Origin: Thioalkalivibrio sulfidiphilus HL-EbGr7
GTDB lineage: Bacteria; Pseudomonadota; Gammaproteobacteria; Ectothiorhodospirales; Ectothiorhodospiraceae
Direction of reading: 5' to 3'
DNA length: 64,000 nt
Assembly (NCBI RefSeq): GCF_000021985.1
Contig: NC_011901.1
Location: 2,108,001 to 2,172,000, forward strand
The notes under the pieces were generated by a model. That model was given only the letters and a program-made list of their open reading frames with translations. It was not told the origin of the DNA and did no database searches. Positions 11,400-15,627 of the stretch are shown here, piece after piece (within the stretch, counting starts at the first letter, position 1; every line of letters starts with the position of its first letter). Both the position numbers and the translations under genes were made by a program.

Positions 11400-12611
11400 A
11401 TGGGTGAATCCTTGAAGATCCTGATGATCAGCGATGTGTACTTTCCGCGCATCAACGGGGTCTCCACCTCCATCGCCACCTTCAAGCGGGAACTGGAAAC
11501 CCTGGGCCATCGGGTCACCCTGATCGCCCCGGCCTACCCGGCCGGCACCACGGATGACGAGCACGACATCATCCGCATCCCGTCGCGCTACCTGTTCCTG
11601 GACCCGGAAGACCGGATGATGAAGCGCGGCGCCATCCGCCGTCTGCTGCCGCAGCTGCGCGAGACCGGCTACGATCTGCTGCACATCCAGACCCCCTTCA
11701 TCGCCCACTACCAGGGCCTGTGGCTGGCACGCAAGCTCGGCATCCCGCGCATCGAGTCCTACCACACCTATTTCCAGGAATACCTGTTCCATTACTTCCC
11801 GCTGCTGCCCGACGGGGTGATGCGCGCCATCGCCCGCAGCTTCTCCCGCAGCCAGTGCAATGCCATAGACGCCATCGTGGTGCCCTCGGTGGCCATGTCC
11901 GAGGTGCTCGGCCGCTACGGCGTGAAGACCCATCGCGAGATCGTGCCCACGGGCATTGAGCTGGAGGATTTCAATCACGGCGACGGCGCCGCCTTCCGGG
12001 CAAAACTGGGCATCCCGTCCGAGACGCCGGTGCTGGTGCACGTGGGGCGCATCGCCTTTGAAAAGAACATCGACTTCCTGCTGCGGGTGATGGCGCGGGT
12101 GCGCCAGGTCTTGCCCGAGGCGCAGATGATCGTCGCCGGCGAGGGACCCGCCCTGTCCCATGTGAAACACCTGGCGCGCAAGCTGGGGCTGGCCCGGGCG
12201 GTGCACTTCGTGGGTTACCTGGACCGGCGCAATGCCCTCCTGGACTGCTACCGGGCCGGGGATGCCTTCCTGTTCGCCTCGCGCACCGAGACCCAGGGGC
12301 TGGTGTTGCTGGAGTCCATGGCCCTGGGGGTACCGGTGGTGTCCACGGCGGTCATGGGCACCCGGGACATCGTGGAACCCGAACTGGGCGCGGTGCTGTG
12401 CCCGGAGGACGAGGCCGGTTTCGCCGACCGGACGGTGGCCCTGCTCAACGATGGTGAACGCCGACACAACCTGGGCGTGCAGGCCCGGCACTTCGCCGAA
12501 GGCTGGTCGGCACCCGCCATGGCCGAGAAGATGCAGGCGCTGTATCGGCGCGTACTGAAACAGGCCTCACGGGAGGGCTCCGCCTTGACCGCCAACAGCA
12601 GGTCTATATAA
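11400..12611 (+). CDS. GT4-family glycosyltransferase
   Basis: Cytoplasmic retaining GT-B glycosyltransferase of 403 residues. The N-terminal Rossmann lobe starts LKILMISDVYFPRINGVSTS, with the glycine-rich acceptor loop (INGV) seen in mannosyl- and glucosyl-diacylglycerol synthases and in PimB-like enzymes. The C-terminal donor lobe has VHVGRIAFEKNIDFLL, IVAGEGP and the E-x7-E motif in TETQGLVLLESMALG. Donor and acceptor sugars cannot be read from the sequence. The closest general resemblance is to glycolipid or capsule mannosyltransferases. The mgtE promoter overlaps its 3' end. Confidence 0.9.
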   Translation: MGESLKILMISDVYFPRINGVSTSIATFKRELETLGHRVTLIAPAYPAGTTDDEHDIIRIPSRYLFLDPEDRMMKRGAIRRLLPQLRETGYDLLHIQTPFIAHYQGLWLARKLGIPRIESYHTYFQEYLFHYFPLLPDGVMRAIARSFSRSQCNAIDAIVVPSVAMSEVLGRYGVKTHREIVPTGIELEDFNHGDGAAFRAKLGIPSETPVLVHVGRIAFEKNIDFLLRVMARVRQVLPEAQMIVAGEGPALSHVKHLARKLGLARAVHFVGYLDRRNALLDCYRAGDAFLFASRTETQGLVLLESMALGVPVVSTAVMGTRDIVEPELGAVLCPEDEAGFADRTVALLNDGERRHNLGVQARHFAEGWSAPAMAEKMQALYRRVLKQASREGSALTANSRSI

Positions 12612-12612
12612 T
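12585..12612 (+). promoter_or_regulatory. Consensus sigma-70 promoter for the mgtE pair
   Basis: A -35 box TTGACC (12585-12590) and a perfect -10 box TATAAT (12607-12612) are separated by 16 bases, overlapping the end of the glycosyltransferase gene. Transcription should begin near 12619, which gives a leader of about 287 bases before mgtE. This is the best promoter match I see in the window. Confidence 0.75.
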
Positions 12613-12618
12613 CGGCGA

Positions 12619-12905
12619 TGTCCCAAACGAGAGGTCACGTTACCTTGGAAAGTTCCAGTTGTACCTTAACTGACACCACCCAGCGGTAAGGCCCGCCTCC
12701 CCTCTCGGACACCCAGGCCCCTTCCCGCTGGCAAGCAGACTGGCGGGAACGAAGCACCTGGCGCGCATGCCCTCCCGGGCGCGCATTTTCCTTCGTTTCC
12801 AGTGATCAATTCCGACCGGAACCGGTTGACGACGTCCCCTGGGATGCGTTCCGGTCCCGGTGTCCGCCATGGCTGATGCGCCGGGCGGCCTGCACAGGAT
12901 CGGGC
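12619..12905 (+). promoter_or_regulatory. Long structured 5' leader of mgtE, candidate regulatory RNA
   Basis: No gene is visible in this stretch. A 7-bp closing stem (12628-12634 with 12701-12707) encloses an inner TTACC/GGTAA stem (12640-12644 with 12685-12689). A second 7-bp hairpin (12722-12728 with 12743-12749) follows. A GC-rich hairpin (12761-12766 with 12779-12784) is followed by an AUUUUCCUU tract and could terminate transcription. The layout is aptamer-like domain, then terminator, then Mg2+ channel gene, which suggests a cation-responsive leader. I do not recognise the M-box or yybP-ykoY consensus in it. Confidence 0.45.
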
Positions 12906-14270
12906 ATGGAAACCGAATTCGAGCACTACCTGATCGAGATCCGCGAGCTCCTCGAGCGCGAGGACTGGCCGCGCCTGCGGGAGGTGCTCGACCTGATGCG
13001 CATCCAGGACATCGCGCATGCGCTGATGGAACTGGAGGACGAACAGATCCCCCGGGTCTTCGCCGCCCTGCCCCGGGGCCGCAAGGTGGACGTGTTCTCC
13101 TACCTGGACCCCCACTACCAGTACCCGCTGCTCGCCCACGTCTCCGGCGCCGAGGCCCGGCATCTGCTCTCGGAGATGCTGCCGGACGACCTCACCGCGC
13201 TGCTGGAAGACCTGCCGCCGGAAGAAGTCCGGCGCCTGCTGCGGCTGCTGCCCTTCAGGGCCATCCGCCGCGCCCTGACCCTGCTGGGCTATCCCGAAAG
13301 CAGCGTCGGCCGCCTGATGACCACCGAGTTCGTGGCCGTGCGTCCGGACTGGACCATCACCGACAGCCTGGCCCACATCCGCGAGCACAGCGAGCGGGGC
13401 GAGACGGTCAACGTGATCTTCGTCATCGACGAGGATCGCCACCTGCTGCACGCCCTGCCGCTGAAGCGTTTCGTGCTGGGCCGTCCCACCGACCCGGTGG
13501 AAAAGCTGCCTGCCGGCCCCGTGGTGTCCATCAATGCCCAGGCGGACCAGGCCGAGGCGGTGCGCCTGATCCAGCATTACGACCTGGAAGTGCTGCCGGT
13601 GGTGGACGAGGAGAACGTGCTGCTCGGCATCATCACCGTGGACGACGTGATGGACGTGGTGGAGGAAGAGACCACCGAGGACTTCCACAAGATGGGTTCC
13701 GTGGGCGCGCTCAACCTGAGCCTGCGCGACGCGGGATTTCCCCTGCTGTATCGCAAGCGCATCGGCTGGCTGCTGGTGCTGGTGGCACTCAACCTAGTGG
13801 GCGGCACCATCATCGCCGGTTACGAGGAGGCCATCGAGGCCCTGGTGGTGCTGGTGTTCTTTCTGCCGCTGATCATCGCCAGCGGCGGCAACGCGGGCGC
13901 CCAGTCCTCCACCCTGATGGTGCGCGCCCTGGCCACCGGCGACGTGGAGGCCAAGGACTGGCTGAAACTCTGGGGCCGGGAGCTGTTCGTCTCCGCCGCC
14001 CTGGGCCTGACCATGGGTGTTGCCGTCTCGGCCCTGGGCCTGTGGCGCGGCGGACCCGAGGTGGCCATGCTGGTGGCCATCGCCATGACCCTGGTGGTGG
14101 CCATGGGCAGCCTGGTGGGCATGATGCTGCCCTTCATCCTGGATCGCCTGCGCATGGACCCGGCCACCGCCAGCGTGCCCCTGGTGACCTCCGCCGCAGA
14201 CATCGCCGGGATCCTGATCTACTTCTCCCTGGCCGTGGCCCTGCTCAACCTGCCCACGGGCGGACTCTGA
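12906..14270 (+). CDS. mgtE: MgtE magnesium channel, first copy
   Basis: Dimeric Mg2+ channel of 454 residues. A helical acidic N domain (about 1-130) precedes two CBS domains (about 135-260) that sense Mg2+ in known MgtE. A C-terminal membrane domain of five helices carries the family signature ASGGNAGAQSSTLMVRA and the pore-lining TSAADIAGILIYF. ATG 12906 has AGGA upstream; the in-frame ATG at 12876 lacks a ribosome site. A paralogue follows 13 bases downstream, so the two are co-transcribed from the consensus promoter at 12585. Confidence 0.96.
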   Translation: METEFEHYLIEIRELLEREDWPRLREVLDLMRIQDIAHALMELEDEQIPRVFAALPRGRKVDVFSYLDPHYQYPLLAHVSGAEARHLLSEMLPDDLTALLEDLPPEEVRRLLRLLPFRAIRRALTLLGYPESSVGRLMTTEFVAVRPDWTITDSLAHIREHSERGETVNVIFVIDEDRHLLHALPLKRFVLGRPTDPVEKLPAGPVVSINAQADQAEAVRLIQHYDLEVLPVVDEENVLLGIITVDDVMDVVEEETTEDFHKMGSVGALNLSLRDAGFPLLYRKRIGWLLVLVALNLVGGTIIAGYEEAIEALVVLVFFLPLIIASGGNAGAQSSTLMVRALATGDVEAKDWLKLWGRELFVSAALGLTMGVAVSALGLWRGGPEVAMLVAIAMTLVVAMGSLVGMMLPFILDRLRMDPATASVPLVTSAADIAGILIYFSLAVALLNLPTGGL

Positions 14271-14283
14271 CGAAGCCGATTTC

Positions 14284-15627
14284 ATGAGCGAAACCGATGT
14301 CATCGAGAACCTGCCGGAACTGATCGCCACCCGCGACTGGGATGCCCTGCGTGGCATCCTGGGGCAACTGGCCGACCAGGACATCGCCCGCGCCACCCCG
14401 GATCTCGCCCCACAGGACCGTGAACGCCTGTTCGCCCACCTGCTGAGCCCCGAGCGGGCCTCCAACGTATTCTCCTACCTGAGCACCGAGCAGCAGACCG
14501 AGGTGCTCGACGCCCTGGAGGACGAGGACAAGGCGCGGCTGATCGGCGAGCTGCATTACGACGATGCCGCGGCCCTGCTGGACGAGCTGCCGGACGAGCA
14601 CACCGAGCTGCTCATGGAGATGCTCCCGGTGGAGGACCAGCAGGTCCTGCAGGCCCTGCTCACCTACCCCGAGGACAGCGCCGGCCGCTTGATGAACCCG
14701 GAGTTCATCACCGTGCGCCCCGACTGGAGCGTGGGCCAGGCCCTGGATCACGTGCGCGAGCAGCATGACGTGGGCGAGAACGTGAACATGGTGTTCGTCA
14801 CCAGCGCGCAGGGGCAGGTGCTGGGCACCCTGCGTCTGCGCGACCTGCTGCTGGCACGTCCGAGCACCAAGGTCCACGACATCGGCCATGGGGACGTGAT
14901 CAGCATCGGCACCGACGAGGACCAGGAAGAGGCGGCGCGCGTCATCCGCCACTACGACCTGGAGGTGCTGCCCGTGGTCGATGACCAGGGCGTGATGCGC
15001 GGCATCATCACCCTGGACGACATCCTGGACGTGGTGGAGGAAGAGACCACGGAGGACTTTCAGAAGATGGGTTCCGTGGGCGTGGTGGGCCTGAGCCTGA
15101 AGGAGGCCAGTGCGAGCCTGCTCTATCGCAAGCGCATCGGCTGGCTGGTGATCCTGGTGGTGGTGAACATCTTCAGCGGCATGGCCATCGCCCTGTTCGA
15201 GGCGGCCATCGAGACCGTGGTGGCCCTGGTGTTCTTCCTGCCCCTGGTCATCGCCAGCGGCGGCAACGCCGGCGCCCAGTCATCGACGCTCATGGTGCGC
15301 GCCCTGGCCACCGGCGACGTGCAGACCCGGGACTGGCTCAAGCTCTGGGGCAAGGAACTGCTGGTCTCCGCGGCCCTGGGCGCCACCATGGGCCTGGCGG
15401 TGTGGGGTGCCGGCATCTGGCTGGGCGGCGTGGACGTGGGCCTGGCGGTGGCCATCTCCATGGTGCTGGTGGTGGTCATGGCCAGCATGTTCGGCATGGT
15501 GCTGCCCTTCGCCCTCAACCGCTTCGGCCTGGACCCGGCATCGGCCAGCGCGCCGCTGATCACCTCCGTGGCGGACGTGTTCGGCATCCTGATCTATTTT
15601 TCGGTGGCAACGGCGGTGCTTTTGTAG
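14284..15627 (+). CDS. mgtE: MgtE magnesium channel, second copy
   Basis: 447-residue paralogue of the preceding gene with the same N, CBS-CBS and five-helix architecture. Blocks such as EEETTEDF-KMGSVG, LLYRKRIGWL and SGGNAGAQSSTLMVRALATGDV are nearly identical between copies, showing a tandem duplication. The N domain has diverged most. MgtE normally forms homodimers; two co-expressed paralogues could form heterodimers or differ in Mg2+ threshold (inference). A complex repeat begins four bases after its stop. Confidence 0.96.
   Translation: MSETDVIENLPELIATRDWDALRGILGQLADQDIARATPDLAPQDRERLFAHLLSPERASNVFSYLSTEQQTEVLDALEDEDKARLIGELHYDDAAALLDELPDEHTELLMEMLPVEDQQVLQALLTYPEDSAGRLMNPEFITVRPDWSVGQALDHVREQHDVGENVNMVFVTSAQGQVLGTLRLRDLLLARPSTKVHDIGHGDVISIGTDEDQEEAARVIRHYDLEVLPVVDDQGVMRGIITLDDILDVVEEETTEDFQKMGSVGVVGLSLKEASASLLYRKRIGWLVILVVVNIFSGMAIALFEAAIETVVALVFFLPLVIASGGNAGAQSSTLMVRALATGDVQTRDWLKLWGKELLVSAALGATMGLAVWGAGIWLGGVDVGLAVAISMVLVVVMASMFGMVLPFALNRFGLDPASASAPLITSVADVFGILIYFSVATAVLL

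Follow-up and report, generated by a model that had tools for sequence, protein, structure and literature searches.

What decides whether the first of two tandem mgtE genes in Thioalkalivibrio sulfidiphilus HL-EbGr7 is transcribed: an RNA that binds a metal ion, or a ribosome that translates a short open reading frame in the leader? The question arises from a 64,000-nucleotide stretch of this genome (hereafter the window; NC_011901.1, positions 2,108,001 to 2,172,000), in which an initial annotation had placed a transcription-attenuating riboswitch ahead of a Mg2+ channel gene. In its general sense, as a conserved and structured regulatory leader before such a gene, this proposal is borne out by the promoter, by a short upstream open reading frame (uORF) and by the covariation of one helix, P2. 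As a riboswitch it is not the best reading, since the 3' end of a conserved, translated-looking ORF serves as one arm of the switch helix and the leader has no intrinsic terminator that is conserved. We therefore read the leader as a putative ribosome-coupled attenuator before mgtE, to which we give a probability of roughly two in three: the ribosome on the leader peptide, and not a metal-binding RNA pocket, probably decides mgtE expression. The features on which the argument draws, in window coordinates, are as follows.

12585 to 12612, + strand: promoter, TTGACC-16-TATAAT
12628 to 12634, + strand: CGAGAGG, Shine-Dalgarno sequence of the uORF and left arm of helix P1
12645 to 12689, + strand: leader ORF (uORF), TTG start, MESSSCTLTDTTQR, stop TAA at 12687-12689
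12680 to 12691, + strand: left arm of P2, made up of the final uORF codons and the stop
12701 to 12707, + strand: CCTCTCG, right arm of P1, an anti-Shine-Dalgarno sequence
12720 to 12731, + strand: shared arm, used on the right side of P2 or the left side of P3
12740 to 12751, + strand: right arm of P3 (CTGGCGGGAACG), pairing in the predicted fold and in the ensembles
12760 to 12784, + strand: GC-rich hairpin followed by ATTTTCC, a doubtful terminator
12906 to 14270, + strand: mgtE, first of the tandem pair
14284 to 15627, + strand: second mgtE

The frame of this locus is well defined. A scan of positions 12000-14600 found one promoter-like site where 0.2 were expected, so that the consensus promoter claimed earlier is the only one in these 2.6 kb. 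Both hexamers and their 16-nt spacing are identical in all five genomes of the genus (L001-L005), with variable letters in the spacer, and in each of the five the uORF starts 32 nt past the −10 box; a distance of 28-35 nt between the end of the best promoter match and the uORF start is found in 11 of 13 further leaders, with 20 nt in L021 and 62 nt in L197 as the exceptions. The transcript would begin shortly after 12612. The promoter sits inside the 3' end of an upstream glycosyltransferase gene (ORF 11400-12611), whose TAA stop codon is contained in the overlapping TATAAT box (window 12600-12612). Downstream, the gene called a Mg2+ channel is indeed mgtE, with Pfam domains MgtE_N, CBS and MgtE and a start set by alignment with relatives, and the second mgtE was likewise identified by Pfam. 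A close mgtE is present in all 38 searched genomes of the order, with two or more matches in 37.

The best-conserved part of the leader is an element absent from the initial annotation, namely a uORF of 14 codons that opens on TTG behind CGAGAGG and is kept in all five genus genomes as well as in other lineages. The 45 nt around its start are identical in the four distinct aligned leaders of the genus. An alternative start, an in-frame ATG near 12618, occurs in L091 and L092, is absent from L093 and L094 and was not taken. Outside the genus, uORFs before mgtE read MDSSSCRDNRMLTATARPA (L012), MDSSSSYPPRFLR (L013), MESSPSKDPAFPGSA (L014), MDTHSRRPTHELGASLR (L018), MDIPSSPACGLDCTVQR (L019), MDSSSCRRQFARQPTAVRAAG (L024), MEPGSCHLNSNVISFGR (L197), MEPSSSRSNRMAQ (L200), MDSCSCRSNNLDVLVQPGR (L223) and MDSHSPSDSHLIRAFGG (L225). 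All 16 listed uORFs start with TTG and carry Asp or Glu as residue 2, a pattern that is partly built in, as most were retrieved by a search for TTGGA; codon 5 is AGT (Ser) in 14 of the 16. The stop codons interchange among leaders between TAA, TGA and TAG.

Is it the peptide or the nucleotide sequence that is under selection here? L012 and L024 share the N-terminus MDSSSC and encode its serines by AGT-TCC-AGT and TCC-AGC-AGT, respectively, and the retention of the residues despite swapped codons points to selection on the peptide. A codon-linkage test, in which BLOSUM62 scores summed over codons 2-6 were compared with those obtained after shuffling each nucleotide column among sequences (retaining column composition and breaking codons), was applied to 12 lineages, with the basic sister form and L236 left out. 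Frame 0 scored 592 against 457 ± 37, a value reached by none of 1,000 shuffles, compared with 673/1000 in frame 1 and 12/1000 in frame 2, which supports the frame of the putative uORF. The invariant AGT at codon 5 may also reflect a constraint at the level of RNA. As for codon usage, the leader ORFs contain the rare codons TTA, TGT, ACT and AGT (0.2, 1.3, 1.4 and 2.2 per 1,000, respectively); this content stands out against the full set of gene windows (190 of 17,229), and to a lesser degree against gene starts (8 of 44).

The uORF recurs beyond the genus in a patchy manner. All four genus members searched in the order, and all 23 genomes of the sister genus g3, have a TTG (or ATG) uORF ahead of their first mgtE. 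In g3 its sequence is MKRNRRCRSSHALR, MKRRSRSRSICASR or similar; ATG replaces TTG in the sister leaders L122 and L123, and L126 carries a 12-nt in-frame duplication. The sister-genus peptide is basic (MKRRSRSRS...) and has no acidic residue, so that one peptide-based sensor does not explain all members. The leader uORF was seen in none of ten g5 genomes, whose upstream regions were partly read by eye, and not in the one g4 genome. Three g5 genomes (L095, L096 and L097) have an unrelated ATG uORF (MPMAPSSVPLTRIA, MPMAPSSVPATRIA or MPMAPSPVPVTRIA, each followed by a stop) 100-135 nt ahead of mgtE, close behind a TATAAT; it is a candidate proline-rich leader peptide. Upstream DNA was read for 24 (L011-L034) of 80 loci, and a TTG uORF was present in ten of them. 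In the order of G410, mgtE was found at E 1e-120 in 26 of 54 genomes, and the leader is present in seven of them (G409, G410, G411, G412, G414, G423 and G424, the last with its 5' end off the contig).

Model searches give a similar picture of a restricted distribution. Model R3, built from eight leaders, found six untrained leaders before mgtE-type genes, namely L012, L197, L205, L223 and L225 (E 2e-6 to 0.024) and L236 (E 0.0049); a match at L152 (E 0.064) was not recognised as a leader, and one at L237 (E 0.049) was put down to chance, as there is no mgtE in its vicinity. Across 369 genomes of the class, R3 returned two at E 0.01, the window's own genome and G118, so the leader is uncommon in the class. 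The mixed model R1 matched 12 of the 369 at E 0.1, of which only two (the own genome and G006) adjoin mgtE; its match at L195 (E 0.0028) likewise lacks a neighbouring mgtE and was not accepted. A DNA search of 58 relatives gave matches in ten genomes, five of them from the genus and five with matches of 22-37 nt that we took as chance. When models of the window form and the sister form were run against each other, the hits fell in the right place and were not significant (L091, 11.6 bits, E 0.68; L119-L121, 12.9 bits, E 0.18), so that the proposed homology of the two forms rests on position and layout.

Several of these loci show additional elements. The L236 leader, whose uORF reads MDSSSCRCQSNVERTLLAR before its stop, precedes a divergent mgtE (31% identity) without an N domain, and roughly 400 nt past the TTG uORF, ahead of the gene, this reverse-strand locus has another short ORF, which begins MDDPSSRMPSLG and has an acidic residue and a proline as in MgtL. 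Free-standing MgtE_N-like ORFs lie between leader and mgtE in L197 (1213-1458, 82 aa) and L225 (671-892, 74 aa), with Pfam scores of 25.3 and 24.8 bits, just below the cut-off of 25.9. About 270 nt before the mgtE of L210, a TTG frame beginning MDADTGLPG follows GAGG and TATAAT and lacks the AGT codon; it is a possible further leader peptide. Finally, L013 contains a TwoAYGGAY RNA (RF01731, 57.2 bits, positions 1045-1208) in the same locus as a leader.

We then turn to the structure of the leader. The enclosing 7-bp stem proposed earlier exists as P1, formed by CGAGAGG and CCTCTCG, and its left arm doubles as the Shine-Dalgarno sequence of the uORF. Covariation, which had been named as the check on the stems, is strong in a different helix. 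On an alignment of 27 leaders, P2 pairs in 85.3% of cells and shows 29 double changes against 9.7 after shuffling (0/500), with at most 11 when the partner arm is slid; one of its column pairs is U-A, A-U or G-C depending on the sequence. The signal is also obtained from the 19 sister-form sequences by themselves (12 double changes vs 6.1, 0/500) and from 13 sequences of the other lineages (10 vs 4.4, 0/500), and it weakens with only eight sequences (5 vs 2.9, 45/500). The main alignment excluded L012, L014, L017 and L024, in which the end of P3 could not be placed, together with the near-duplicates L093, L106, L118, L120 and L126; that of the other lineages excluded L012, L014, L017, L024 and L200. 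P1 pairs in 64.0% of cells against 59.6% (2/500), has no excess of double changes (14 vs 11.9, 135/500) and shows no significant column-wise covariation. A test in which swaps were made between clades gave 103/5000 for P2 and 601/5000 for P1. As a whole, the leader folds little better than shuffled sequences do (z −1.67, 13/200 as good). Thermodynamic tests on individual sequences were weak in this GC-rich DNA.

The positions of the helices suggest how they might be coupled to translation. P2 and P3 are mutually exclusive because both use the arm 12720-12731, and the end of the uORF overlaps P2, one of these two exclusive stems, which is the layout of uORF-coupled Mg2+ transporter leaders. Among 19 leaders, the shared arm was predicted to pair more upstream than downstream in two when a 31-nt ribosome footprint was placed on the last codon, and in 11 when it was placed on codon 5. 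The shift exceeded 0.2 in ten of the 19 leaders and fell short of this in nine. In the window's leader, no shift was seen for a transcript cut after P3. When the transcript was ended at 12751, 12800 or 12905, the P2 side reached 0.51, 0.82 and 0.88, respectively, with the ribosome at codon 5, and the P3 side 0.82, 0.87 and 0.72 with the ribosome at the last codon. As the window's leader shifts with some transcript ends and not with others, the predicted switch depends on the ends chosen.

The leader lacks the hallmark of a classical attenuator, a GC-rich hairpin with a U-tract before the gene, and no intrinsic terminator is conserved in it. The hairpin and U-tract that had been taken for one at 12760-12790 were not scored as a terminator, and the T run is present in two of the five genus genomes (L001 and L002) and absent from L003-L005; no terminator-like site was found anywhere in 12000-14600. 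The C-over-G bubble at 12664 lies at the 99th percentile of the window; this C-rich stretch is only suggestive of Rho-dependent termination.

Taken together, the comparison supports the promoter, a uORF conserved at the level of its peptide, the helix P2 and its overlap with P3; translation in the cell, the direction of the switch, the Mg2+ signal and the role of Rho are what we infer around them. A ribosome would load at the TTG of the leader ORF and, on finishing it, would cover the left arm of P2, so that the shared arm pairs forward into P3; this would leave the C-rich leader RNA open to termination before mgtE, probably by Rho. If the ribosome instead stalled or dropped off early, in the M-[DE]-x-x-S stretch with its rare codons, P2 would form, P3 would not and transcription would enter mgtE. 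P3 would thus be the off state and P2 the on state. If the analogy to mgtL and corL holds, the leader would respond to low Mg2+ in the cytoplasm, a condition that would weaken the ribosome on such N-termini.

This layout resembles that of known leaders, as far as the available parts of the respective papers describe them. The window's leader, mgtL, mgtP and corL have in common a 5' uORF whose last codons lie in the arm of a switch helix and the lack of a conserved intrinsic terminator. In mgtL and corL, efficient translation of the uORF represses the Mg2+ transporter and poor translation raises it, for mgtL at low Mg2+ (PMC11282234, PMC11552253). The corL leader of corA likewise has a UUG-started uORF, a Shine-Dalgarno sequence in a stem, two exclusive structures and a Mg2+ transporter downstream; however, its transporter and peptide are different, and Rho and Mg2+ have been demonstrated for corL, where for the window's leader they are putative (PMC11552253). 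The mgtL leader of mgtA shares the acidic residue 2 and a short uORF whose translation sets transcription of a Mg2+ transporter, but MgtL carries an EPDP motif in place of M-[DE]-x-x-S, and MEP occurs in only 2 of the 16 uORFs (L197 and L200) (PMC11282234). In the mgtP leader of mgtCBR, too, the uORF ends in codons that make up the left arm of one of two alternative stems, and an intrinsic terminator is lacking, although mgtP responds to proline and has two tandem attenuators (PMC3641672). We liken the window's leader to mgtL and corL by layout and do not claim homology.

Was the leader undescribed, as had been suspected? The sister form is the "mgtE ncRNA motif" of Rfam, RF04316 (L114, 295.8 bits; L122, 231.2 bits; L113 and L104 only 22 and 19 bits), yet the model misses the window, with no match in 12500-13000 up to E 10 and none for L091 or L092. 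Its gathering score of 200 bits is passed by 15 of 47 genomes of the order and by none in the window's genus. RF04316 is also an mgtE leader in related genomes; its junction stem corresponds to P1 and its long hairpin to P3, in the same order relative to the uORF, and the matched stretch of L114 contains an Arg-rich TTG uORF. The motif was described from 32 representatives, in Thioalkalivibrio only, as a strong riboswitch candidate, in a survey most of whose candidates are untested (PMC11109978). In the accessible portion of that paper's main text, no uORF is given for the mgtE motif, the term "leader peptide" is absent and the passages on uORFs do not name mgtE. No title or abstract opening in the open-access literature gives the mgtE studied here a leader peptide. 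A promoter-like TTGATT-16-TAGAAT lies in the 5' part of the L114 match (1197-1290, roughly the first 90 positions of the model); the model's first hairpin and its conserved block may hence represent promoter DNA and not RNA.

Could the leader nevertheless be a true riboswitch for a metal ion or small molecule, as proposed for RF04316, with the letters around the TTG forming the aptamer and the short ORF being secondary? The candidate's standing in the available text of PMC11109978 speaks for it, as does the fact that letters are kept as well as residues, both in the 45 identical nucleotides of the genus and in the fixed AGT. Nevertheless, the Ser codons switch between AGY and TCN with the residue kept, the coding test is frame specific, and no compact junction with covariation was seen other than P2, whose left arm contains the stop codon; we consider this reading unlikely. 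No known metal riboswitch was found either: the 64-kb window has no Rfam match at gathering score, and neither M-box nor yybP-ykoY, which the initial annotation had not recognised either, turned up even when matches with E values of up to 10 were admitted.

It is somewhat less probable still that the leader affects translation or stability of the mgtE mRNA, or that the uORF is constitutive, with no Mg2+ sensing at all; the leader might, for example, sense Ser or Arg supply through rare codons. The Ser-rich and Arg-rich peptides with their TTA, TGT, ACT and AGT codons would fit such a sensor, but chance matches aside, the downstream gene is always of mgtE type or belongs to its operon in the leaders read, which argues for Mg2+ and not an amino acid. 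The peptide-level conservation of the N-terminus could also be expected of a small protein acting in trans; with peptides of 13 to 21 residues, an unconserved C-terminal half and a 3' end that doubles as a helix arm, we regard this as very improbable. The ribosome-coupled attenuator thus remains our preferred reading.

Several leader carriers come from soda lakes, as judged by record titles, and the CSSed and T3Sed MAGs are presumably soda-lake samples as well. Tight control of Mg2+ uptake makes sense in such lakes, which are described, in the accessible part of PMC4766312, as lacking major divalent cations. It is tempting to speculate, at somewhat less than even odds, that the leader belongs to a new class of Mg2+-sensing leader peptides (M-[DE]-x-x-S, TTG start, fixed AGT) that control MgtE by early ribosome drop-off and arose independently of mgtL and corL, with RF04316 as their Arg-rich branch. 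If so, all three bacterial classes of Mg2+ transporter, CorA, MgtA and MgtE, would have uORF-coupled leaders, the orphan riboswitch candidate RF04316 would become a testable leader-peptide attenuator, and the class would reach past Thioalkalivibrio to acidic, Ser-rich forms that are invisible to the Rfam model.
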